Source of the DNA: Bacteroidales bacterium | GTDB taxonomy: Bacteria > Bacteroidota > Bacteroidia > Bacteroidales > DTGW01 | Assembly (NCBI GenBank): GCA_026416115.1 | Contig: JAOAFU010000161.1 | Coordinates: 1 to 32,505, forward strand | DNA length: 32,505 bases | Direction: 5' to 3' | In this document: positions 8,827-32,505 of the stretch, piece after piece | How positions within the stretch are numbered: the stretch's first letter is position 1 | How the letters are laid out: the number at the start of each line of letters is the position of its first letter | Translations under genes and position numbers: made by a program | The notes under the pieces: generated by a model | What the model was told of the DNA's origin: nothing | Seen by the model: the letters and a program-made list of their open reading frames with translations, nothing else | Databases searched by the model: none

Positions 8827-10386
8827 ATGGTTGCACAAAAAGATATTACTATCCTTTGGGCCGATGATGAGATTGATTTGTTGCGTCCTCACATCCTTTT
8901 TCTCGAGTCGAAAGGCTATAGGGTAATAACTGTAACCAATGCCAATGATGCTCTTGTAATGGCCAGACAGCATAAAGTAGATATTATTTTTCTCGACGAA
9001 AACATGCCTGGCAAAAGTGGACTTGAAATAATACTTCCTCTTAAGCAGTCGTTACCCTTCGTACCTGTAGTAATGATTACAAAAAGCGAAGAGGAAAATG
9101 TGATGAATAATGCGATAGGTTCTAAAATAGATGACTATTTAATAAAACCAGTTAATCCCAATCAGGTACTTTTGTCGATTAAAAAACACGTCGAAAGCCG
9201 TTCGCTCGAAGTTAGTGCCACTACACAGTCGTACCAGTTGCAGTTTGCTCGATTAACCAACTCGATTAATACGGCTCGGCAGCTCGAAGATTGGATAGAT
9301 ATTTATAAACAATTGGTATTTTGGGAGCTTGAGCTCGAGCGCACCGAAGTGCAACTACTACAAACCCTTCATGCTCAAAAACAGGAAGCCAACACAGGAT
9401 TTGGAAAATTCGTAAAAAACAACTATCACACCTGGTTCGACACTCGAAACGAAAACAAGCCGTTGCTTTCGCCAACAGTTTTTTCAAAAAAAATTTTCCC
9501 ATTACTCGAAAGCGGTGAGAAAGTATTCGTTATCTTAATCGATAACCTACGTTACGATCAGTGGCGAAGCATAATGCCTGTTATCACTGAGTTTTGCTCA
9601 ATAGCATCCGAAGATTTGTACTGTAGTATATTACCAACAGCTACACAATACGCACGCAATGCTCTATTCTCGGGTTTAATGCCATTAGAAATTCACCGTA
9701 TATTTCCCAACCTTTGGGTCGACGAGGAGGATGAGGAATCGAAAAATGTAAATGAAGAGGAATTGCTGGCATTTCAATTGAAACGCTATGCATCCAGTAT
9801 TTCTTTTCATTACGATAAAGTAAATAATTATAAATATGGGCAGCGATTACTGGAAAAGTTACCTAATTTGCGACAACTGCCGCTCATTGTATCTGTTTTC
9901 AACTTTGTCGATATCCTTTCGCATGCCCGAACACAGACCGAAGTTTTAAAAGAACTGGTACTCGACGAAGCAGCTTATCGATCGGTTACCCTCTCGTGGT
10001 TCCAACATTCTGTTATCCCCGAAATTATAAAGCAGGCACTTGATTTTGGATATCGAATAATCATTACTACCGATCATGGCTCAATTAGGGTCTCAAACCC
10101 TATAAAAGTTATTGGCGACCGTCATACCACCAGTAATCTACGGTATAAAACCGGCAAAAATCTCGATTATAACTGGCGCGAAGTCTACGAGGTCAAAAAG
10201 CCATCGGCCATACACCTACCCATTACTGGTGTATCGTCGACCTATATCTTTGCCCTCAACTCGGACTATTTCGTATACCCTAATAATTACAATCAGTTTG
10301 TAAATTTCTACAAAAATACCTTCCAGCATGGCGGTATTTCGATGGAAGAGATGCTTGTGCCTATCGTCGAGCTTACTGCTCGCTAA
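8827..10386 (+). CDS. porX: PorX, response regulator with PglZ-type alkaline phosphatase domain (type IX secretion regulator)
   Basis: In this 519-residue protein residues 5-125 form a CheY-like receiver: acidic pair D13/D14, phospho-acceptor D57, T85 and K107. After a helical linker comes a PglZ domain of the alkaline phosphatase superfamily. It has the metal-binding VILIDNLRYDQW (D239), the nucleophile region LPTATQY (T271) and TTDHG (D416/H417). This architecture and length are those of PorX, known to act with the kinase PorY and an ECF sigma factor in controlling type IX secretion in Porphyromonas, and reported to have phosphodiesterase activity on oligonucleotides. All receiver and metal-site residues checked are present, so it should be active. 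Its position directly after porW fits. No output DNA-binding domain is seen, as expected for PorX. No kinase partner is in the window. Confidence 0.93.
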   Translation: MVAQKDITILWADDEIDLLRPHILFLESKGYRVITVTNANDALVMARQHKVDIIFLDENMPGKSGLEIILPLKQSLPFVPVVMITKSEEENVMNNAIGSKIDDYLIKPVNPNQVLLSIKKHVESRSLEVSATTQSYQLQFARLTNSINTARQLEDWIDIYKQLVFWELELERTEVQLLQTLHAQKQEANTGFGKFVKNNYHTWFDTRNENKPLLSPTVFSKKIFPLLESGEKVFVILIDNLRYDQWRSIMPVITEFCSIASEDLYCSILPTATQYARNALFSGLMPLEIHRIFPNLWVDEEDEESKNVNEEELLAFQLKRYASSISFHYDKVNNYKYGQRLLEKLPNLRQLPLIVSVFNFVDILSHARTQTEVLKELVLDEAAYRSVTLSWFQHSVIPEIIKQALDFGYRIIITTDHGSIRVSNPIKVIGDRHTTSNLRYKTGKNLDYNWREVYEVKKPSAIHLPITGVSSTYIFALNSDYFVYPNNYNQFVNFYKNTFQHGGISMEEMLVPIVELTAR

Positions 10387-21798: not shown

Positions 21799-22845
21799 AT
21801 GTATATGTTCACATTGCCAAGAAGACTAAAAATTGGACCGGGGCTTATTAATAGTATTAATACCACTTTTGAATTAAACAATATTAATGGTAAAATATTA
21901 TTATGCTCTGATGATTTTGTTTACAAAAAATATGGTATTATAGTTCGTGAACAAGCTAAGATGCATGGAGAAGTTTTGCTTTTTCTTATTAAAGAGAACT
22001 CTATACAACAGGCTATTGAGCTTTCCGAACAAATCATATCCAATGACATTGAGTATGTAATTGGTGTAGGAGGTGGGCGCGTCTTGGATACTTGTAAATA
22101 TGCTTCTCATATGACAAAACGAAAGTTTGTTTCAATACCTACGATAGTCTCAAACGATGGTGTGGCCTCACCAATTGCAGTTTTAAAACATAAAAGTGGA
22201 CGTCCAAAAAGTTTAGGTAGTACTATGCCCTATGTAATTATTATCGATACAGATATCATTATACAAAGTCCTATTCAATACATTCATGCAGGTATTGGAG
22301 ATACTATTTCTAATTACACAGCATTGTTCGACTGGGACTATGCTGAACAAAATGGCAAAGAAACTAAGAACGATTTGGCATATTTAATTTCTCAAACTGC
22401 ATTTGACATAATGATTAATAGTAAATTAGACAGAATAGACCAAAATTTTATTGAAATTCTAGTTCAATCTCTTGTGCTTTCTGGGATTGCTATGGAAATG
22501 GCTGGAACTAGTCGACCATGTAGTGGTGCAGAACATTTATTTAGTCACGCGATTGATTATTACTTTACTAAAAATAATTTACATGGATTACAGGTAGCTT
22601 TAGGAACAATAATAATGGCAAAATTATATGATATTGAATATAAATTTTTAATTGATTTTCTAAAAAAATACAACATTAAAGTTAGTCCCCTATCACTAGG
22701 AATTACCCGAGAAGAGTTTAAATTCTGCATGGAAAAAGCACCAGAAATGCGACCTGATCGTTACACTTTTTTAAATGAAGTGCTTTTCAATAAAACATAT
22801 AATTTTGATATATTATTTGATGATTTAATGAGTGAATTGGAATAA
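21799..22845 (+). CDS. Glycerol-1-phosphate dehydrogenase-like enzyme (iron-containing ADH superfamily, EgsA/AraM/Gtp1 type)
   Basis: This 348-residue protein has the NAD(P)-binding GVGGGRVLDTCK motif, IPTIVSNDGVASP (the T-x-x-S-x-D-G-x-x-S-P box of sn-glycerol-1-phosphate dehydrogenases) and IDTDII. The metal ligands are D168 (GIGDTISN), H246 (SGAEHLFSH) and H262 (HGLQVALGT). The family reduces dihydroxyacetone phosphate to sn-glycerol 1-phosphate: in archaea for lipids, in Bacillus (AraM) for a glyceryl ether. Some members sit in capsule loci, as in the pneumococcal gtp1-gtp2-gtp3 set linked to CDP-2-glycerol. Here the neighbours are a nucleotidyltransferase, a HAD-IIA phosphatase and a glycerophosphotransferase, so it most likely makes the glycerol phosphate that is later activated. 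Which isomer is made cannot be read from sequence. A second in-frame ATG lies at 21805. Strongly AT-rich. Confidence 0.85.
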   Translation: MYMFTLPRRLKIGPGLINSINTTFELNNINGKILLCSDDFVYKKYGIIVREQAKMHGEVLLFLIKENSIQQAIELSEQIISNDIEYVIGVGGGRVLDTCKYASHMTKRKFVSIPTIVSNDGVASPIAVLKHKSGRPKSLGSTMPYVIIIDTDIIIQSPIQYIHAGIGDTISNYTALFDWDYAEQNGKETKNDLAYLISQTAFDIMINSKLDRIDQNFIEILVQSLVLSGIAMEMAGTSRPCSGAEHLFSHAIDYYFTKNNLHGLQVALGTIIMAKLYDIEYKFLIDFLKKYNIKVSPLSLGITREEFKFCMEKAPEMRPDRYTFLNEVLFNKTYNFDILFDDLMSELE

Positions 22846-22846
22846 T

Positions 22847-23548
22847 ATGAAAGCTTTGATTTTAGCAGCTGGATTAGGATCACGTCTAAGGCCAATTACC
22901 GACAAAGTTCCTAAGTGTATGGTAGAAGTAAAAGGGCAATCAATAATTAGTAGACAAATTGAAAATCTTATTCAGTCAGGGATAAAGGATATATGTATTG
23001 TAGGAGGTTATAAGGCAGATATTTTATATAAACACATTAAAGGTATGCTAAACTTTTTTACCTTTATTGAAAACAAAGAGTATGAAGTAACAAACAATAT
23101 GTATTCCCTATATCTTGCACGACATAACTTATATGGAGAACCTTTTATTCTATTGAATGGAGATGTTGTTTTTGATCAGCGAATACTAGATCACTTATTA
23201 AAAAATCAAGACCCAAATTTAATAGTGTGTCAAAAAGATTATTATCTTGAGGAGTCCATGAAAATTTCATTTAAGAATAATCGAATTGATAGAATAAGTA
23301 AGACAATTGAACCTGCACAATCTTATGGAACAAGTATTGATATTTACAAATTTTCATCAGCGGCAAGTAAAACATTGTTTGATATTATATATCAAATATT
23401 ATACATTGAAAAAAACTTAAATTCTTGGAGTGAAGTTGCTATCGATAGATTGTTAAAACATCATATCTTTTTACCTTTAAACATCATTTATCCTTGGGTT
23501 GAAATTGATAATTTTGAAGATTTATTACTAGCGAATACAATTTTTTGA
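22847..23548 (+). CDS. NTP transferase, glycerol-phosphate/choline-phosphate cytidylyltransferase-like
   Basis: The 233-residue protein is a nucleotidyltransferase of the GT-A-like fold: signature LAAGLGSRLRP (residues 6-16), conserved VPK with K23, EVTNNMYSLYLAR, and LLNGDVVF with metal-binding D106. The N-N-x-x-S-L-x-x-A-R element is typical of the LicC/Gtp2-like branch, which joins CTP to small phosphorylated alcohols (choline phosphate, glycerol phosphate), rather than of hexose-phosphate enzymes. Given the dehydrogenase before it and the glycerophosphotransferase after it, CDP-glycerol (or an isomer) is the expected product; CDP-choline is less likely as no LicD-type transferase is seen. 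It starts 1 nt after the previous stop. The GTG at 22832 is a less likely start. Confidence 0.82.
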   Translation: MKALILAAGLGSRLRPITDKVPKCMVEVKGQSIISRQIENLIQSGIKDICIVGGYKADILYKHIKGMLNFFTFIENKEYEVTNNMYSLYLARHNLYGEPFILLNGDVVFDQRILDHLLKNQDPNLIVCQKDYYLEESMKISFKNNRIDRISKTIEPAQSYGTSIDIYKFSSAASKTLFDIIYQILYIEKNLNSWSEVAIDRLLKHHIFLPLNIIYPWVEIDNFEDLLLANTIF

Positions 23549-23553
23549 AATTT

Positions 23554-24360
23554 ATGAATAATTTAAACAATATTGAACTTTTTTTACTTGATATGGATGG
23601 CACTATTTATATTGAAAATAGTTTAATTGATGGTGCTAATGATTTTTTCAACTATCTTAATAAAAATAAAAAAAAATTTATATTTCTTACCAATAATTCT
23701 TCAAATAGTGCAAAAAACTATTTACTAAAACTTCAGAAACTTGGTATTCCATGTAACTTAGACAATATTTTTACTTCGGGCATGGCGATGGGAATTTTTT
23801 TACAAAAGGAACGTACTGGAATACCTGTGTTTCTTGTTGGAACACAAGCTTTATATGAAGAATTAAAAGATTATAATGTTAATTTAGTAAGTAATTATAA
23901 AGAAGCTAAAATTGTTGTCGTAGGCTTTGACAAAGAATTAACATACCAAAAAATTGAAAAAGCATGTGAACTCATCGATCATGGTGCAGAATTTTTAGCT
24001 ACTAATGTAGACATGTTGTGTCCAATAGAAAATAAACGTTTTATACCTGATTGTGGAAGCATATGTAAAATAATTGAAATAGCTACAAGAAAAAAACCGA
24101 AATTCTTAGGGAAGCCTGAACGTCAAATGATCGATTTAATAGCTCACAAAAATAATTGTCCACCAAATAAAATAGCTATTATAGGTGACCGCTTATATAC
24201 AGATGTTTTAACAGGCATAAATGCAGGTATTACATCTATATGCGTACTTTCTGGAGAAACTAATATTAAAATGATAAAAAAATCCAAGTATAAGCCCGAT
24301 TATATTTTCAAGAATATTAAAGAAATCTTCGAATTTTTGAGTCAATGTCAGAAACATTAG
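23554..24360 (+). CDS. HAD-IIA family phosphatase (NagD/Gtp3-like)
   Basis: The 268-residue protein has motif I LLDMDGTIY (D13, D15), motif II FLTNNSS, the cap region with VVVGFDKELTY and FLATNVDMLCP typical of the C2B cap of HAD-IIA enzymes, motif III in FLGKPE, and motif IV IGDRLYTDVLTG (D212, D217). It should be a soluble phosphatase for a small phospho-metabolite. In the pneumococcal CDP-2-glycerol locus a HAD protein (Gtp3) accompanies the reductase and nucleotidyltransferase; this gene holds the same position here, so a step in glycerol-phosphate supply is inferred. I prefer ATG 23554 over TTG 23545, which would overlap the previous stop. Its 3' end overlaps the flippase gene by 16 nt. 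Confidence 0.85.
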   Translation: MNNLNNIELFLLDMDGTIYIENSLIDGANDFFNYLNKNKKKFIFLTNNSSNSAKNYLLKLQKLGIPCNLDNIFTSGMAMGIFLQKERTGIPVFLVGTQALYEELKDYNVNLVSNYKEAKIVVVGFDKELTYQKIEKACELIDHGAEFLATNVDMLCPIENKRFIPDCGSICKIIEIATRKKPKFLGKPERQMIDLIAHKNNCPPNKIAIIGDRLYTDVLTGINAGITSICVLSGETNIKMIKKSKYKPDYIFKNIKEIFEFLSQCQKH

Positions 24361-25601
24361 AAAACATAAAAAGACTAATTAAACATAATTTATTTAGGAA
24401 TTTTTTTAGTCTATCTGCTCTGCAATTATTTAATCTGTTATTACCAATTTTAACATATCCATATTTAATTAGAGTATTAGGACAACACAATTATGGGATG
24501 TTAATATTTGCTAATTCAATAATACAATATTTTACTATTATCATAAATTTTGGATTTAATATATCAGCAACTAAAGATGTTTCGGTCAACAGAAAAAATA
24601 TTAATAAGCTTAATGAGATTACTAACAGTGTTTTGTTAATAAAATTTATAATATTTTTTGTTGGATTAATGATTTTGTTATGTCTGACTTTTTTTCTGTT
24701 TGAATTAAGTAGATACCGAATGCTAATATTAATTACCTATACTATATGTATTTCAGAAGTAATTTTTCCAGTTTGGTTTTTTCAAGGAGTTGAGGATATG
24801 AAATTTATTACATATCTCAATGTGTTTACAAAGGTATTTTTTACAATACTTATTTTTATATTTGTTCAATCAAAAGACGATTATTTGAAAATACCAATCT
24901 TCAATTCGTTGGGTGCATTCTTTGGAGGCATTTTTGCTTTAACAATACTAGTAAAAAAGTATAAGATAAAGTTTCTTATTCCTTCTTTATCTATAATACA
25001 AAAACAAATTACAAAAAGCTTACCTTATTTCTTTTCAAGGGTTTCAGCAGTTATTACAGTTGAAACTAATATTATCATTATTGCCAATAAAATGGGATTT
25101 TCAAATGTAGCATATTATGATCTTGCTAAAAAAATTGTTAATATTATGATCATTCCTATAAATATCTTAAATCAAGTAATTTTCCCATCAGTGGTAGCAT
25201 CAAAAAATATGCGATTGGTAAAAAAGAGTATTATTTTGGCATTTGTATATGGATTAGCAGTATTCTTTATTATAATATTATTTTCTGAATCAATTATTAC
25301 TGCTCTTGGGGGTAAAAATATGTTACCTGCAAAATATTTAATTTGGATTTTGTGTTTTTCAGTTCCTTTGTCAGGAATACACTACTTTCTAGGGAATACA
25401 GTACTAGTAGTAAAAGGATATGCTCAAATTTTTAATAGGAGTGTTATTTATTCTATGATTTTTTACCTTGCTTTGGTAGTACTACTTTTTTTTACTCAAC
25501 TCTTCTCTATATATACAATAGCTATTATAGTAATTTGTTCAAATATTTTTGATTTAGCATATCGTTGGTATCACGTAAAAAAACTTAAATTGTTAAAATA
25601 A
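24345..25601 (+). CDS. wzx: Wzx-type polysaccharide flippase (MATE/PST superfamily)
   Basis: This 418-residue, very hydrophobic protein has about 12 predicted membrane segments. The N-terminus (LFRNFFSLSALQLFNLLLPI, then LTYPYLIRVLGQHNYG) is the classic start of O-antigen flippases of the polysaccharide_synt family, and FPVWFFQGVEDM is the conserved W-F-F-Q-G motif of that family. It should flip the undecaprenyl-linked repeat unit to the periplasmic side. Its start lies inside the end of the HAD gene (16-nt overlap), and its stop shares one base with the next start codon, so expression is coupled. Confidence 0.92.
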   Translation: MSETLENIKRLIKHNLFRNFFSLSALQLFNLLLPILTYPYLIRVLGQHNYGMLIFANSIIQYFTIIINFGFNISATKDVSVNRKNINKLNEITNSVLLIKFIIFFVGLMILLCLTFFLFELSRYRMLILITYTICISEVIFPVWFFQGVEDMKFITYLNVFTKVFFTILIFIFVQSKDDYLKIPIFNSLGAFFGGIFALTILVKKYKIKFLIPSLSIIQKQITKSLPYFFSRVSAVITVETNIIIIANKMGFSNVAYYDLAKKIVNIMIIPINILNQVIFPSVVASKNMRLVKKSIILAFVYGLAVFFIIILFSESIITALGGKNMLPAKYLIWILCFSVPLSGIHYFLGNTVLVVKGYAQIFNRSVIYSMIFYLALVVLLFFTQLFSIYTIAIIVICSNIFDLAYRWYHVKKLKLLK

Positions 25602-26779
25602 TGATAGAGCGAATTATAGGTTTTATTATTTATATTTTTTCATTTTTATTTGTTCGAAACAAAAACAAATGGGTTTTTGGAAGTTATGGAGGTTTTAATG
25701 ATAATTCAAAATATTTATTTTTATATATCATTAAAAATCACCCAAAGATAAAAGCTATTTGGATTTATGAAAAAAAACATTCTCAACAATTTATAAATTT
25801 TCCATTCAAAGCTTATTATCAATGGTCAATTAAAGGTTTATATCACTGCTTAACAGCGAAGGTATATATTTTTTCAGCATATTCGAAAGAAATAAACTTT
25901 TTTACTTCAGGAGGTGCAATTCTTTTCAATTTATGGCATGGGATTGGAATTAAAAAAATTGAATTTTTAATTGATTCTGGCCCGTTAAAAAAAAACTTTC
26001 AATTTAATTTACAGAATTTATGGAAATACCCTTGGATCTTTAGAAAACCTGATTATGTATTATCTACATCCTCCTACACGAGTGATAATTTTTTTGCACC
26101 AGCTTTTAGAATAAAAAAAAATCAATGTATAGAAATTGGCTATCCTCGTTGTGATATTTTATTCCTTACTCAAAGCCAAATTATTCAATACGTAAAGCAA
26201 TTTGAGAAAAAGGATATGATGAATTTATTGCTAAAAACTAAAGAGTATAATGAGATATATATATACATGCCAACCTGGAGAGAAGACAATAAGAATTTTG
26301 TGGTTAATGCAAAAATAGATTTTGAAAAAATTAATGAACTAGTTCGAACACAAAAATCTCTTTTCTTAATAAAATTACATGTAAATTCGAACTTGGATCT
26401 TGATAATTATTCAAAGTTATCAAATATAATTTTTCTTCCTACTAATTTGGATGTTTACCCTCTTCTTCCTTTTACCACTTGCCTAATTACAGACTATTCA
26501 TCTGTATATTTTGATTACTTACTTCTAAAAAAAAGAATAATATTATTTCCTTTTGATTATGAACAATATATTTTAAGAAATAGATCTATGTTATTCGATT
26601 ATAATGATACAATGATTGGAGAGAAAGTTTTTAATTTTGATTCTCTACTTGATTGCATTTCAAAACCTAAAAGAAAAATATCATACAATTTACAAATTGA
26701 GAAATTTTGGAATAATTATCATGGTAATGCCTCATATAGATGTACAGAATTTCTAAAAAAACTACTTAAAATAAATTAA
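25601..26779 (+). CDS. CDP-glycerol glycerophosphotransferase-like enzyme (Glyphos_transf, TagB/TagF family)
   Basis: The 392-residue protein has a hydrophobic N-terminal patch (about 5-19) and then the catalytic domain of the teichoic-acid glycerophosphotransferase family. Visible motifs are FGSYGGFNDNSKYLF, LWHGIGIKK (H113), IGYPRCD, YMPTWRED, IKLHVNSN (H260) and TCLITDYSSVYFDY (D298, S300, S301). H113 and H260 align with the two histidines known to be essential in TagF; the proline that normally follows the second is a valine here. It lacks the N-terminal GT2 domain of long teichoic-acid polymerases, so single transfer or short chains are plausible. Inferred: it adds glycerol phosphate from CDP-glycerol, made by the three genes at the operon start, onto the repeat unit or its lipid carrier. 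It overlaps the flippase stop by 1 nt. Confidence 0.88.
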   Translation: MIERIIGFIIYIFSFLFVRNKNKWVFGSYGGFNDNSKYLFLYIIKNHPKIKAIWIYEKKHSQQFINFPFKAYYQWSIKGLYHCLTAKVYIFSAYSKEINFFTSGGAILFNLWHGIGIKKIEFLIDSGPLKKNFQFNLQNLWKYPWIFRKPDYVLSTSSYTSDNFFAPAFRIKKNQCIEIGYPRCDILFLTQSQIIQYVKQFEKKDMMNLLLKTKEYNEIYIYMPTWREDNKNFVVNAKIDFEKINELVRTQKSLFLIKLHVNSNLDLDNYSKLSNIIFLPTNLDVYPLLPFTTCLITDYSSVYFDYLLLKKRIILFPFDYEQYILRNRSMLFDYNDTMIGEKVFNFDSLLDCISKPKRKISYNLQIEKFWNNYHGNASYRCTEFLKKLLKIN

Positions 26780-26784
26780 CCCCT

Positions 26785-27714
26785 ATGCAAAAAGCTTTGG
26801 TCTCAGTTATAATTCCTTGTTACAATGTTGAAATATATGTTGAAGAAGCAATATATTCTATTATGAATCAAACTTATAAAGATTTAGAAATTATTTGTAT
26901 CGATGACGGTTCTAAAGATCGAACAGGAGAAATACTACAAAAACTTTCGCATGAGGACAGTAGGATTATTTATATTCAACAAAAAAAAAATTTGAAAATT
27001 GTTGAAACTTTAAATAGAATATTACCTCTAACAAAAGGGGAATTTATTGCTCGTATGGATGCTGATGATATTTGCACCATAGATCGTATTGAAAAACAAG
27101 TTAATTTTATGCAAAAACACCCCGAGATTGCTGTTGTTGGAAGTTGGGCAATTAAATTTGGAAAAATAACGCGAAAATGGACACCTCCCACTTCCTCAGA
27201 AGACATTGTAGAAGAATTATTTCTTGGTTCCCCAATTCCTCATTCAGTAGTAATGTTTCGAAGATCAATCTTGAAAGATATCATATATGACAAAAATTAT
27301 TTGTATGTTGAAGATTATAAGCTTTGGTTTGATCTTTCAAAAAAATATAAATTAGCAAATATTCCAGAATTTTTATTATACTATAGAATTCATTCATCTC
27401 AAACCTGCTTTGAAAATCCAGTTCAGACAATGAATTTAAAGAAACTCAAAATTGAAATTATTAATTATTATTTAGCAAAATATGGTACTTCTATAACAAT
27501 TGAAGATTTTTTTGGAATTAAAAGTTTAAATTTATTGAAAATAGCTAAAACTAAAGTACCACGTAATTTGTATTTAATGATGAAAACTAGTGTTTATTTA
27601 AATTCAAGAGCTTCAATTTTTACTTTCCTATATTTTTTTATTAGTCTTGATTTTATTTCATTAAAAAAAAGATTTTTTGTAAGAATCATATCTAAACATC
27701 TTCTAAAAAAGTAA
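26785..27714 (+). CDS. Family 2 glycosyltransferase
   Basis: The 309-residue protein has a GT-A domain: VSVIIPCYNVEIYVEEAI, ICIDDGSKDRTGE (D40, D41), and FIARMDADDICTIDRI with the metal-binding D92-x-D94. The GSPIPHSVVMFRR and YVEDYKLWFDLSKKY segments place it with O-antigen/capsule GT2s that build repeat units. Donor and acceptor cannot be deduced. It contains a run of ten A (26981-26990) in the codons for residues 66-69, the longest A-run I noticed in the window. It starts 5 nt after the glycerophosphotransferase and resembles the partial GT2 at 32029 in the same motifs despite very different base composition. Confidence 0.92.
   Translation: MQKALVSVIIPCYNVEIYVEEAIYSIMNQTYKDLEIICIDDGSKDRTGEILQKLSHEDSRIIYIQQKKNLKIVETLNRILPLTKGEFIARMDADDICTIDRIEKQVNFMQKHPEIAVVGSWAIKFGKITRKWTPPTSSEDIVEELFLGSPIPHSVVMFRRSILKDIIYDKNYLYVEDYKLWFDLSKKYKLANIPEFLLYYRIHSSQTCFENPVQTMNLKKLKIEIINYYLAKYGTSITIEDFFGIKSLNLLKIAKTKVPRNLYLMMKTSVYLNSRASIFTFLYFFISLDFISLKKRFFVRIISKHLLKK
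26981..26990 (+). repeat. Ten-base poly-A tract inside a GT2 gene
   Basis: An uninterrupted A10 lies about 200 nt into the GT2 gene at 26785. A change of one or two bases would shift the frame early in the catalytic domain, before the D-A-D motif. Several 8-9 base A-runs occur in neighbouring island genes (25987, 26113, 28147, 31907), so this may reflect AT bias and lysine codons only. Confidence 0.7.
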
Positions 27715-27718
27715 AACT

Positions 27719-28804
27719 ATGTCATCTGAAGGGTATTTAGTTGATATTTTTAAGATTCTGAGATTTTTGTATTCTAAGAAAAAAAGCATATTAATTACAA
27801 CATGCATTTCTTTCGTTATGGGAGTAATCATTGCTTTAACGAGTAGAACAGAGTATACAATTGAAATTCAGGCAATACCAATTACTGGTAATACTAAAGG
27901 AGGATTATCCGGAATTATACCATCGACTTTGTCAGCCTTAGGTGCTAATATTAATTTGTCTAATATTGATAATCCTACCGATATTGCAGTAAATGTTTAT
28001 CCTGTTCTTTTTAATTCTAGACCTTTTAAAATGGCTATTTTAAATTCAAATATTAGATTTGAAAAACCTGACACTGTCTTGCCTCTATCAATTTATCTCG
28101 AGAAATATCAACCATTTTCTTTACCAAGTGCTTTTTTTACTTCAGTAAAAAAAATTCCGAATATATTTTCATTAATGAGCAGTGATAAGCAAAAAAATGT
28201 TGTTTCAAACAACATAGATTCAAATATTTTAGTTTTTGATAAAAAAATAGAAGATTTATTTTTTGAACTTGATAGTAGAATAAAAATAAAAGTAGATCAA
28301 CTTAATAATAATTTAATTACTCTTACTATTAAATTACCGGACAAAATAGGTGTAGCAGAACTTGGCAAAAAAATAGTAACTATGCTAAATGATGCTATTA
28401 TTAACTACAAAATACAGAAAGCAAAAACAGACGCTGAATTTATTGAAGGCCGATATAAAGAGGCTTATTCAAAATTTGTAAAAGCCCAAATGAATTTATC
28501 TACCTTTCGTGACCAAAATAAGAGTATTATTTCTGCGTCAGCCAAAGCAATAGAAGAAAGGCTTATTATGGAATTCAATATAGCATATAATGTTTATAAT
28601 AGTTTAGCAATGCAACTAGAACAGGCACAGTTAAAAATCCAAGAAAACAAACCTGTTTTGCAAATAATAGAACCTGCTTATGTCCCTAATTATAAAAGTG
28701 GACCTAAACGGATATTGATCGTTACTCTGACAACATTATTTGGTCTATTTGTTTCTGTAGTTTATGTTTATTGTAAAAATAATTTATACTTTAAAATCTC
28801 ATAA
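27719..28804 (+). CDS. wzz: Wzz-type chain-length determinant
   Basis: The 361-residue protein has the polysaccharide co-polymerase layout: a short cytoplasmic start (GYLVDIFKILRFLYSKKK), one membrane helix at about residues 23-42, a long periplasmic region with helical stretches (about 235-315), and a second membrane helix at about 332-354 preceded by PNYKSGPKR, close to the Pro/Gly-rich motif before TM2 of Wzz proteins. It lacks a tyrosine kinase domain, so it is the Wzz rather than the Wzc type. It should set O-antigen or capsule chain length with the polymerase encoded immediately downstream (2-nt gap). Confidence 0.85.
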   Translation: MSSEGYLVDIFKILRFLYSKKKSILITTCISFVMGVIIALTSRTEYTIEIQAIPITGNTKGGLSGIIPSTLSALGANINLSNIDNPTDIAVNVYPVLFNSRPFKMAILNSNIRFEKPDTVLPLSIYLEKYQPFSLPSAFFTSVKKIPNIFSLMSSDKQKNVVSNNIDSNILVFDKKIEDLFFELDSRIKIKVDQLNNNLITLTIKLPDKIGVAELGKKIVTMLNDAIINYKIQKAKTDAEFIEGRYKEAYSKFVKAQMNLSTFRDQNKSIISASAKAIEERLIMEFNIAYNVYNSLAMQLEQAQLKIQENKPVLQIIEPAYVPNYKSGPKRILIVTLTTLFGLFVSVVYVYCKNNLYFKIS

Positions 28805-28806
28805 GA

Positions 28807-29958
28807 GTGATATCCTTTGAACATTATATTAACTCCAAAGAACTTCGAATTCATATAATGAGTTTTGTAGTTTGGATATCTTTTTTTCTTGTAATTTTTT
28901 CAACTAACTATTTGGAAAAAGATGTAGGTGTTTCTTTTATTAGTCTTGCAAACATTCGCTATATTTTATATCCTTTGCTTTTTGTGGCTTTGACAATTCA
29001 AGTAATTATTGGTCAAAAGATTAAAAAGAATTTATTTAACACTTTTTTTTTAGCATTAATTTTTGTTACAATTTTACAGTTAATATATTCCGAAATTAAC
29101 TTTTCCGTTCTATTTCGTTTATTATTATTATTGCCACTTGCATTTGTAACTAAAATAGAATACCGCTATCCCTTTTTAGAGAAAATATTATTAACAGTTG
29201 CTATATTGTTATCTATTGTTTATAGTTATTCTTTAGGTTTTATAGGTAATGATAATCGTTTTGTTGCAAACTCAGATGATCCTAATGTTTCTGCTTTGAC
29301 ATTTTTACTCGGTTTTTATTTTTCACATCGTCGTGATTATAAAGTTTTGAAGCTTTGTTTTCTTCTTTTAGGTCTTTTTACATTAAGTAGAAATTTTATT
29401 GGTTCAATAATTATTTTTTACTTGATTAGTTATTCAAAAAAAAATAACCTTGTAAAAAAAATCTTACTAAAAATTCCAATTTGGACTGCAATTTTGGTGT
29501 TAAATTTTACCCTGTTTTCTGTTGGCAGTATTGTAACATTGAAAAGTAAAGATAGCTTTATATATTCTGTGAATAATAGCTCAAGAATTTTACATTGGAA
29601 AGATACTTCAAATAAACGTCGAATGTTATATAATCAACTGGCTATTATTTACCTTTTTAGTAATTCAAACAGTTTGATTTATGGTTACGGTGAAAACTAT
29701 ACCTTTCGCAAAGATATCATTATGCCAAAATCTGTTCACAACACTTTTTTGGATATAATGATGTCATATGGTGTAGTTTTTGCTGTTCTATTAATCATTG
29801 TAATATCTAAAGTTCTTCAACAAGTGATAAATGAAACGAATTTTGAATATTTTTATAGCTATTTGTTCTTCACTTTATTTCTTCCAGGTTGCTTTAGTGG
29901 ATTTATATTATATGCATTCTATGCAATCTTATCTTTGCAAAAACCCGAAAAAACCTAA
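28807..29958 (+). CDS. wzy: Probable O-antigen polymerase (Wzy)
   Basis: This 383-residue polytopic protein has about ten to twelve hydrophobic segments and one larger hydrophilic loop (about residues 245-305, NNSSRILHWKDTSNKRRMLY to the KSVHNTFLD motif). The H-N-x-F-L-D-x-x-x-x-Y-G element (around residues 313-324) corresponds to the signature near the end of the big periplasmic loop in Wzy/ligase-fold proteins. Sequence divergence is normal for Wzy, so the call rests on topology, motif and location next to Wzz and Wzx. The start is GTG at 28807, 2 nt after the Wzz stop; ATG 28858 would give a protein 17 residues shorter that still contains every membrane segment. Confidence 0.8.
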   Translation: MISFEHYINSKELRIHIMSFVVWISFFLVIFSTNYLEKDVGVSFISLANIRYILYPLLFVALTIQVIIGQKIKKNLFNTFFLALIFVTILQLIYSEINFSVLFRLLLLLPLAFVTKIEYRYPFLEKILLTVAILLSIVYSYSLGFIGNDNRFVANSDDPNVSALTFLLGFYFSHRRDYKVLKLCFLLLGLFTLSRNFIGSIIIFYLISYSKKNNLVKKILLKIPIWTAILVLNFTLFSVGSIVTLKSKDSFIYSVNNSSRILHWKDTSNKRRMLYNQLAIIYLFSNSNSLIYGYGENYTFRKDIIMPKSVHNTFLDIMMSYGVVFAVLLIIVISKVLQQVINETNFEYFYSYLFFTLFLPGCFSGFILYAFYAILSLQKPEKT

Positions 29959-29964
29959 TCTTGG

Positions 29965-30984
29965 ATGATAAAGATAAGCATAATTATTCCTATTTATAAA
30001 ACTGAAAAATATATTGTACACTGTGTAAAATCAATTATTCCATTTCTTTCACAATATACTGAATGTATATTTATCGATGATGGATCACCTGACAATGCAT
30101 TAAGTTTAGCTGTTAATTTGGTCAAAGGATTTAATTATAAAACCATTCAACAACCGAATAGTGGTTTGTCCGTCGCAAGAAACAATGGGATCCTCAACTC
30201 AAATGGAGAATATGTCTTTTTTTTAGATTCTGACGATTGGATTGATGGCGATATTAATTTTTTGTATAATTATGCCAAACTTAAGAACTTGGACATCCTT
30301 TCATTCAACTTTAAAAAATATTATGAATGCTGTAGAAAATTGGTATATTCAAAAAAAAATATACCCCCGCAAATTATGACAGGTAGTGAATATTTTTTTT
30401 ATCTTCAAAAAAATAATTTATTCAATGAATTAACGCAGATATATTTATATAGGCGCGAATTTTTAATTGCTAATAACTTATTTTTCTTAGAAGGTATAAA
30501 GCATGAGGATAATGAATTTACTCCCAGAGCAATTCTATTAAGCAAGAGAATAGCTTACCTTGAAAACCCTATATATATTTATCGAAAAAGAGAAAATTCA
30601 ATTACTACTACAATAGACTCTAAACGATTATTTGATTTATTATTGATTACAGAAAGTCTTAATAAATTTCAAGAAATTAACAAAAACGACAACATACTTA
30701 TAAGTAAGGGTTTAGCAATATATGGTGCAAGATTTCTTAAGAAAATACTTTATTTGAATGCTTTGCTAAAAATATCTGGACAAATTGTAGAAGACGTAAA
30801 AGTAAAAGTGAAAAATTCAAAATTTTTAAGAGAATCTGTTCATCAATGTGATGTATTTAAAGTTAAACTTGAAGGGCTTTTAATTTTACATTTTTTTACA
30901 ATTAGCCTATATTTATATCAATATTATTTAAAATTTCGTAATACTTATGCCAAGTTTAAGAATCGTAGTGATTGGAAAAAATGA
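29965..30984 (+). CDS. Family 2 glycosyltransferase
   Basis: The 339-residue protein has a GT-A fold: ISIIIPIYKTEKYIVHCVKS, CIFIDDGSPDNAL (D38, D39), PNSGLSVARNNGI and YVFFLDSDDWIDG (D88-x-D90). GLSVARNNG and DSDDW are standard motifs of capsule and LPS GT2 enzymes. A soluble domain of about 130 residues follows and the C-terminus is hydrophobic, perhaps a membrane-associated segment (LLILHFFTISLYLYQYYLKF). Substrate unknown. It starts 6 nt after wzy and its last 38 nt overlap the next GT2 gene in another frame. Confidence 0.9.
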   Translation: MIKISIIIPIYKTEKYIVHCVKSIIPFLSQYTECIFIDDGSPDNALSLAVNLVKGFNYKTIQQPNSGLSVARNNGILNSNGEYVFFLDSDDWIDGDINFLYNYAKLKNLDILSFNFKKYYECCRKLVYSKKNIPPQIMTGSEYFFYLQKNNLFNELTQIYLYRREFLIANNLFFLEGIKHEDNEFTPRAILLSKRIAYLENPIYIYRKRENSITTTIDSKRLFDLLLITESLNKFQEINKNDNILISKGLAIYGARFLKKILYLNALLKISGQIVEDVKVKVKNSKFLRESVHQCDVFKVKLEGLLILHFFTISLYLYQYYLKFRNTYAKFKNRSDWKK

Positions 30985-31924
30985 AAGTAAAACATTAAAA
31001 AGAGTTTTACAATCTGTTTTAATAGCAAGCAAAAATTTTGAAAATATATTTAATAAAGCGCCAGAAACAATATATGTAGATAGTATGTCTACCGATAATT
31101 CTTTGCAAATAGTTAAAGAATATAATATCTCGTTTAAAATTATTTATGATAATCCCAACCCTGCTAAAGCTAGAAATGCAGGTTTGCAAGATTGCTGTAC
31201 AGATTATATTTTTTTTCTTGATGGTGATACTGAAGTCGACCCTATGTGGCTAGTAGAAGGTGTAAGTTTTTTGGAAAAAAATAAAGAAATTGCAGGAGTT
31301 GGTGGTATGTTAACTAATGTGTTTTATTCAAATAATGATAATCCTAAATTTGTCATTGAAAATTATCGAAATGTTGTAAAAAATATTGAAGAAATAAATG
31401 ACAGTGTTGGCGGTACATTCCTTTATCGCACCATTTGCATTAGATACATTAATGGTTTTAATGAATTTTTACGTGTTTCCGAAGAGTTTGAATTAATTTT
31501 AAGATTACTTTATAAAAATCAACGAGTGGTAAGAATAAAAAAAAAGATGGCAACTCATCATGATTATAAAACAAAAGTAAATTTAATTAGCTTTTTTAGA
31601 AGAAATCTTTTTACCTATGAAATTTTTACTCCGGGATACGTTATTGTTAATGTTCCTAAAAATAAGAATGTTATAAAAAAAATTTTGTTTAGATATAGTT
31701 ATCAATTTTTATATATACCAATTGTTACTTCGGCAACCATTTTGTTTTATTTTAAATACTATATTGGAAGTTTAATAATGCTTATTTTGTTAATAATTGC
31801 TTCATTTTTTTATAAAAAGTTCGATTTCAAACGTTCTCTCATTGCAATTTTTAGTAATATTTTTTTTTCATTCGGACTTTATGCAGGTATTGTTTTTTAT
31901 TATTTCAAAAAAAAATCACATTGA
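30947..31924 (+). CDS. Family 2 glycosyltransferase with C-terminal membrane segments
   Basis: The 325-residue protein has its GT-A domain in residues 1-230: RIVVIGKNESKTLKRVLQS, ETIYVDSMSTDNS (D45), NPAKARNAGL and YIFFLDGDTEVDP (D92-x-D94). After it, two or three hydrophobic helices (about 245-315) resemble those of GT2 enzymes that act on polyprenyl-linked substrates, so it may be a membrane-tethered transferase. VDSMSTDNS in place of the usual DDGS is common in this subgroup. It overlaps the preceding gene by 38 nt and is the last gene with island composition. Confidence 0.9.
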   Translation: MPSLRIVVIGKNESKTLKRVLQSVLIASKNFENIFNKAPETIYVDSMSTDNSLQIVKEYNISFKIIYDNPNPAKARNAGLQDCCTDYIFFLDGDTEVDPMWLVEGVSFLEKNKEIAGVGGMLTNVFYSNNDNPKFVIENYRNVVKNIEEINDSVGGTFLYRTICIRYINGFNEFLRVSEEFELILRLLYKNQRVVRIKKKMATHHDYKTKVNLISFFRRNLFTYEIFTPGYVIVNVPKNKNVIKKILFRYSYQFLYIPIVTSATILFYFKYYIGSLIMLILLIIASFFYKKFDFKRSLIAIFSNIFFSFGLYAGIVFYYFKKKSH

Positions 31925-31968
31925 AAGCTACAAAAATATCAGAAAACAAGACACAATATTTAAGATAG

Positions 31969-31976
31969 TATTTTTG
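31969..31976 (+). promoter_or_regulatory. -7 element upstream of the last GT2
   Basis: TATTTTTG matches TAnnTTTG exactly in the 104-nt gap between the last island gene and the host-like GT2, 52 nt before its ATG. No -33 TTG was seen. Confidence 0.35.
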
Positions 31977-32028
31977 TATTAATAACCTACTAATCAATCC
32001 CTAAAATCTATATTATTTATATATCATC

Positions 32029-32505
32029 ATGAATAATAATATTGCATGCCTTTTACCTTTATACATAAACGATAACGCCCATTACCTTAAGCTGGCAATC
32101 GAAAGTCTCGTCAATCAGCCATGTAAGCTAATTCTTTTATGCGATGGGCCAATTAAGGATGAGCATGAAAAAATTTTACAGCAATATAATAGTAAAATCG
32201 AAATTCTTCGCTTTTCAGCAAATCGAGGCCTGGCTGCTGTCTTAAACGACGGCATTCGGTACGCTCTCGAAAATGGTTTCGAATTTATTGCACGCATGGA
32301 TGCCGATGATATTGCCTTACCCGATAGGATAGCAAGTCAGTATACATTTCTTACCGCCAATCCCCAAATCGACGTTGTTGGTGGCGCTATTGAAGAAATA
32401 GACGAAAACAGTTTGCCAACTGGAAAAATTGTTTCGTACCCTTTGACACACGAAGCATGCTTCAAATTTTTTAGTGCACGCGATCCTCTTGCTCATCCAG
32501 CCGTA
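32029..32505 (+). CDS. Family 2 glycosyltransferase, C-terminus cut by window end
   Basis: The frame is open for 159 codons from ATG 32029 to the last base of the window. The protein shows ACLLPLYINDNAHYLKLAIE, LLCDGPIKDEH, ANRGLAAVLNDGI and FIARMDADDIALPDRI (D91-x-D93), a GT2 N-terminal half. The MDADD-x-x-x-x-x-DRI core is shared with the island GT2 at 26785, so the two are related enzymes. Its G+C and CpG content are like the genes left of the island, which marks the right edge of the compositional change. It may still belong to the same glycan pathway. Confidence 0.9.
   Translation, partial: MNNNIACLLPLYINDNAHYLKLAIESLVNQPCKLILLCDGPIKDEHEKILQQYNSKIEILRFSANRGLAAVLNDGIRYALENGFEFIARMDADDIALPDRIASQYTFLTANPQIDVVGGAIEEIDENSLPTGKIVSYPLTHEACFKFFSARDPLAHPAV

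Follow-up and report, generated by a model that had tools for sequence, protein, structure and literature searches.

A probable module for CDP-glycerol supply and transfer in a Wzx/Wzy surface-glycan operon of a Bacteroidales bacterium

Organization of the module

The window analyzed here is a stretch of 32,505 nucleotides from a Bacteroidales bacterium (contig JAOAFU010000161.1, assembly GCA_026416115.1) and represents a whole contig of a genome that is 92% complete and divided into 252 contigs. Within a Wzx/Wzy glycan operon, five open reading frames (ORFs) at 21799-26779 lie head to tail on the + strand and encode, in order, a dehydrogenase (DH), a nucleotidyltransferase (NT), a HAD phosphatase, a Wzx flippase and a glycerophosphotransferase (GPT). 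The initial annotation had named these genes in this place and order, and both the ORFs and the family matches confirm it. Judged from sequence, they probably form a dedicated module for the supply and transfer of CDP-glycerol or a very similar CDP-alcohol (probability about 0.8). This reading is considered likely because the DH/NT/HAD triad recurs with CDP-alcohol phosphotransferases in other genomes and because of the clades in which the DH and NT are placed.

The spacing of the genes from DH to GPT is operon-like. As read from the sequence, the DH stop (22845) and the NT ATG (22847) are separated by 1 nt, with an alternative GTG start for NT at 22832, and the NT stop (23548) and the HAD ATG (23554) by 5 nt. 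The HAD and Wzx genes overlap by 16 nt and the Wzx and GPT genes by 1 nt, whereas 5 nt separate GPT from the family 2 glycosyltransferase that follows. From the DH through the last family 2 glycosyltransferase, GC content is 24-31% and third-position GC is 16-22%, compared with 36-43% and ~34-41% in the preceding genes. Because of this drop, the low-GC glycan block is regarded as acquired by horizontal transfer.

The dehydrogenase

The DH matches the iron-dependent alcohol dehydrogenase families of Pfam (Fe-ADH_2/Fe-ADH; PF13685, 107 bits), and its best NCBIfam model is that of glycerol-1-phosphate dehydrogenase (G1PDH). Its best matches in the PDB are 3ce9 from Clostridium and then the archaeal G1PDH structures 5fb3 and 4rgq; the AlphaFold model (pLDDT 91) gives the same ranking by fold, with true glycerol dehydrogenases lower. 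The metal ligands D168, H246 and H262, noted as intact in the initial annotation, are present and invariant among homologues. Residues D178, W179, S242, G243 and H250 are as in the G1PDH clade and differ in most, if not all, of the glycerol dehydrogenases used for comparison. In a tree of 51 rows, streptococcal GldA-like proteins, which represent the glycerol dehydrogenases, split off with support of 100/99. The window DH groups with archaeal G1PDH and AraM, and its nearest kin are the triad DHs of Bacillota, from Bacilli and Clostridia metagenome-assembled genomes (MAGs) (100/98). The analysis neither establishes a single clade of all triad DHs, with that of Arenibacter included, nor rejects one (p-AU 0.27). 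By tree and residues, the DH belongs to the EgsA/AraM clade and not to the GldA-type glycerol dehydrogenases, which bears out its first assignment to the G1PDH family.

Of 396 Bacteroidota genomes sampled, only that of the window carried a DH of this type, and a published survey detected no G1PDH among the Bacteroidetes that it sampled (PMC6431249). The viral contigs searched contained no relatives of the DH. Three DHs of the Lachnospiraceae type that stand alone (L044, L047 and L048) nest near the triad clade and have SNDS where the clade has SNDG; no NT neighbour was found at these loci.

The nucleotidyltransferase

The NT matches NTP_transferase (PF00483), and its best PDB sequence match is LicC. 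The nearest folds to its model (pLDDT 95.8) are PntC, LicC and CTP:inositol-1-phosphate cytidylyltransferase, with some hexose-1-phosphate enzymes in the next ranks. The NTs of the triads fall into a single clade of the NT tree (98/97), apart from RmlA; row L182, inside this clade, was ignored as a fragment (13% filled). By these comparisons, the NT sits with the CTP:phospho-alcohol enzymes and not with the hexose-1-phosphate enzymes. The enzyme had originally been described as LicC/Gtp2-like, and the LicC part of this name agrees with sequence match, tree and folds. A place among hexose-phosphate enzymes, which had been named as the outcome that would speak against the module, was looked for and not found, since the NT falls in the LicC-like CTP group.

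Several NT relatives from the window's own order, Bacteroidales, adjoin LicD or CDP-alcohol transferases, and a CTP:phospho-alcohol role therefore fits; no DH adjoins any of the relatives read in this order. LicC-like NTs were also seen within ORFs of ~600 residues in the window's order (L027, L028, L029, L031, L032 and L033) and in Fusobacterium (L040), and LicD adjoins some of them.

The phosphatase and the glycerophosphotransferase

The HAD protein matches Hydrolase_6 and Hydrolase_like, and its score against TIGR01460 (137.7 bits) exceeds the cut-off of 100.15. All of its motifs (DxDGT, TNNSS, GKP and GDRLYTD) are intact, and the nearest proteins are TM1742-type and phosphoglycolate-type phosphatases. 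The GPT scores 182.6 bits against Glyphos_transf (PF04464; cut-off 22.1), and TarF gives the top score among the three NCBIfam teichoic models matched. In alignments, GPT residues H113 and H260 correspond to TagF H444 and H584, the histidines altered in two solved TagF variants. The five-gene module is probably functional.

Recurrence of the DH/NT/HAD triad

An alignment of the DH was searched against 85,000 genomes, and one Bacilli genome (L150) was added from a further search. The initial annotation had proposed a survey of other Bacteroidota for the same gene order, and Arenibacter echinorum was found to carry all five genes in a different order (NT-HAD-DH-Wzx-GPT, compared with DH-NT-HAD-Wzx-GPT in the window); the neighbours of this locus include a probable Wzy and genes resembling rmlBACD. 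The order is Wzx-GT-GPT-DH-NT-HAD in L150, and DH-NT-HAD-LicD (L043) and Wzx-LicD-HAD-DH-NT (L046) in two Clostridia. Pfam confirmed the LicD and Glyphos_transf calls at these loci. A CDP-alcohol phosphotransferase from one of two unrelated families (GPT or LicD) is present in all five glycan-linked triad loci, the window included. Because the triad recurs across several gene orders (at least three) and phyla (Bacillota and Bacteroidota, the window and Arenibacter not being close relatives), it is more than a chance grouping.

Beyond the triad, 58 of the 80 nearest DHs recovered have an adjoining NT, although these are mostly from Streptomyces and so are not independent. In Streptomyces and its relatives, CDP-alcohol phosphatidyltransferases accompany the NT-DH pair, as does an ABC exporter at those loci that are annotated. 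That DH and NT would together make a CDP-alcohol is argued chiefly from two facts: their linkage survives changes of gene order, and three unrelated kinds of CDP-alcohol-using transferase adjoin the pair.

A conserved, uncharacterised actinobacterial cluster was observed in L037 (3408-10463), in L038 (3387-10346) and at about 50 more Streptomyces-type loci (e.g. L056, L069 and L107). It comprises a CDP-alcohol transferase/DUF5941 protein, a LicC-like NT, a G1PDH-clade DH, a second CDP-alcohol transferase, a glycosyltransferase and an ABC exporter; the NT-DH pair is present in all of the loci and the full cluster in those read, and in L037 the cluster adjoins hopanoid genes. A Thermoactinomycetaceae locus (L155, 6825-11451, the same as L053) contains NT, DH and a CDP-alcohol transferase without HAD.

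Other features of the window

The genes downstream of the module are listed with it in Table 1. A further family 2 glycosyltransferase-like ORF (31925-32505) seems to start past the low-GC block and runs off the contig end; judged by eye, its composition is closer to that of the host. Elsewhere, the window encodes a TMEM260-like protein O-mannosyl-transferase (PF11028; 1047-4088) and a response regulator fused to a PglZ domain (8827-10386), which we take to be a PorX-like regulator of type IX secretion.

Table 1. Genes of the module and of the downstream part of the operon, with the basis of each assignment.
Feature	Position	Strand	Basis
DH, EgsA/AraM-like glycerol-1-phosphate dehydrogenase clade	21799..22845	+	Pfam, NCBIfam, PDB match, tree, residue signature, fold match
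NT, predicted LicC-like (COG1213 type) CTP:phospho-alcohol cytidylyltransferase	22847..23548	+	Pfam, NCBIfam, PDB match, tree, fold match
HAD-IIA phosphatase/phosphotransferase, four motifs intact	23554..24360	+	Pfam, NCBIfam, PDB match, motif reading
Wzx-type flippase (Polysacc_synt)	24345..25601	+	PF01943, 146 bits
GPT, predicted stand-alone CDP-glycerol glycerophosphotransferase (Glyphos_transf)	25601..26779	+	PF04464, NCBIfam, PDB alignment
Family 2 glycosyltransferase	26785..27714	+	Pfam
Wzz/GNVR-type chain length protein	27719..28804	+	GNVR, score exceeds cut-off
Probable Wzy polymerase	28807..29958	+	Weak Wzy_C match, under cut-off
Family 2 glycosyltransferase	29965..30984	+	Pfam
Family 2 glycosyltransferase, final gene in low-GC block	30947..31924	+	Pfam, GC composition

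Proposed pathway and alternatives

We interpret the locus as a Wzx/Wzy surface-glycan operon (for an O-antigen or a capsule) that probably provides its own supply of a CDP-activated three-carbon alcohol, with CDP-glycerol as the best candidate. The activation and transfer module first proposed for this Bacteroidota operon is supported at the level of a CDP-alcohol, by triad recurrence and by the clades of the enzymes. From the families, catalytic residues, clade placement and linkage we infer the reactions, the alcohol and its acceptor as follows. The DH would reduce a dihydroxyacetone (phosphate) substrate, the NT would couple the resulting glycerol phosphate to CTP, and the HAD protein would handle a phosphate between these two steps. 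The GPT would then move glycerol phosphate onto the lipid-linked repeat unit at the inner face of the membrane, and the unit bearing it would be flipped by Wzx and polymerised by Wzy. Such a supply would bypass the cell's usual sn-glycerol-3-phosphate.

Several observations weigh against this proposal. The DH scores 277 bits against the NCBIfam G1PDH equivalog NF002022, below the cut-off of 413 (all triad DHs tested score 216-277 bits), and it is therefore a divergent clade member for which G1PDH activity is only predicted. The closest solved structure, 3ce9, carries the label glycerol dehydrogenase. In the fold search, identity between the NT and characterised enzymes is no higher than 20-25%. 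The closest relatives of the DH, in two Bacilli MAGs (L041 and L042), are in DH-NT pairs whose surroundings lack HAD, a transferase and any obvious glycan genes. Finally, the role of HAD is unexplained if the DH simply yields sn-glycerol-1-phosphate.

As to the isomer, the DH family, taken by itself, predicts sn-glycerol-1-phosphate, and its formation by direct G1PDH action is a tentative option. Glycerol-2-phosphate, made by a route like that of pneumococcal Gtp1-3, has somewhat less than an even chance; the HAD gene is constant in the five glycan-linked triads and apparently absent from the Streptomyces pairs, which would fit a 2-phosphate route. If the DH makes glycerol-2-phosphate, the pneumococcal CDP-2-glycerol route reaches Gram-negative bacteria. 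If it makes sn-glycerol-1-phosphate, bacteria own a CDP-1-glycerol donor that has been argued to be likely absent from them (PMC8262930), and many genes of the G1PDH clade in bacteria, so far interpreted chiefly in terms of lipid evolution, would be glycan genes. A plausible reading, though one with a less than even chance, is a bacterial CDP-sn-1-glycerol pathway: an archaeal-type G1PDH would feed a LicC-like NT, the glycerol phosphate on surface glycans would have archaeal stereochemistry, and the same DH-NT pair would serve GPT, LicD and CDP-alcohol phosphatidyltransferases in Bacteroidota, Bacillota and Actinomycetota alike. The DH, NT and HAD proteins are small, predicted to be soluble and easy to assay.

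Since the COG1213 group is broad, the NT might activate the phosphate of some other small alcohol (a polyol other than glycerol, or a choline-, ethanolamine- or glycerate-like compound), with the DH making that alcohol. The known substrates of the group (phosphocholine, inositol phosphate, aminoethylphosphonate and phosphoglycerate), the LicD partners in L043 and L046 and the DH score under the G1PDH cut-off are consistent with this. However, the combination of a G1PDH-clade reductase with a Glyphos_transf enzyme nearest TarF points to glycerol, and amino-alcohols require no such reductase, making another alcohol improbable.

It is also conceivable, though very unlikely, that the DH mainly feeds sn-glycerol-1-phosphate (G1P) to GGGP synthase for archaeal-type ether lipids and that its position in a glycan operon is an accident of transfer. 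The genome encodes a GGGP synthase (contig C120, 17713-18372; L184) above the TIGR01769 cut-off, which would allow G1P to go into ether lipids; in vitro, the GGGP synthases of Bacteroidota accept G1P, and the source of G1P in the superphylum has been called enigmatic (PMC7852524). On the other hand, the DH arrived within the low-GC glycan block and is linked to NT, HAD and transferase genes in several lineages, and its presence in a single sampled Bacteroidota genome contrasts with the GGGP synthase orthologues described from every FCB phylum surveyed (PMC6431249). The window genome would hold a G1P-using GGGP synthase plus a possible G1P-making DH. A chance mosaic, in which a variable glycan island has gathered unrelated cassette genes that share no pathway, is hardly credible even though glycan loci are mosaics and this block was clearly acquired, given the triad's several gene orders, its two Bacteroidota hosts that are not closely related and a CDP-alcohol transferase wherever the context is glycan.

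Comparison with known systems

The module for a CDP-glycerol-type donor proposed here resembles several known systems in part. Gram-negative surface glycans that contain glycerol phosphate are no novelty as such. Actinobacillus capsule systems use sn-glycerol-3-phosphate and separate glycerol-phosphate cytidylyltransferases of another family (PMC8262930). No TagD-type enzyme was seen among four CTP_transf_like matches in the 92% complete window genome; the one that most resembles TagD in length (L186) proves to be a heptose-1-phosphate adenylyltransferase, and the other three are unclassified. TagF/TarF and the TagF-like capsule polymerases Cps3D and Bcs3 share the Glyphos_transf domain with the GPT, in which the two TagF histidines are kept, but the GPT is a stand-alone transferase of 392 aa in a Wzx/Wzy operon.

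LicC, PntC and the inositol-1-phosphate enzyme, the best sequence or fold matches of the NT, and CpgD, likened to it by COG assignment alone (COG1213, according to the CpgD paper), are all CTP enzymes for phospho-alcohols, phosphonates or similar compounds. The NT differs from the LicC/PntC group in lying in a separate supported clade with the other triad NTs. The DH shares clade, fold, metal ligands and clade-specific residues with archaeal EgsA and Bacillus AraM, but it lies in a glycan operon and not in a lipid or arabinose context, and it scores under the G1PDH cut-off.

Wang et al. reportedly described in 2010 a CDP-2-glycerol pathway in S. pneumoniae serotypes 15 and 23F, with roles given to Gtp1-3. 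Among 247 genomes of the genus Streptococcus (picked by a 16S pattern and searched with DH and NT profiles), no DH of the window's type was found; the DH matches were distant, and those placed in the tree fell on the glycerol dehydrogenase side. The NT matches were LicC-like, and those read were mostly in licB-licC choline loci. The pneumococcal wzx-wchX-gtp1-gtp2-gtp3 genes encode a flippase, a glycerol phosphotransferase, a glycerol-phosphate dehydrogenase, a nucleotidyltransferase and a phosphotransferase (PMC3493582). The window has the same five annotated functions in a different order and in a Bacteroidota host, whereas the Bacilli locus L150 keeps the relative order of the pneumococcal set save for one extra glycosyltransferase.

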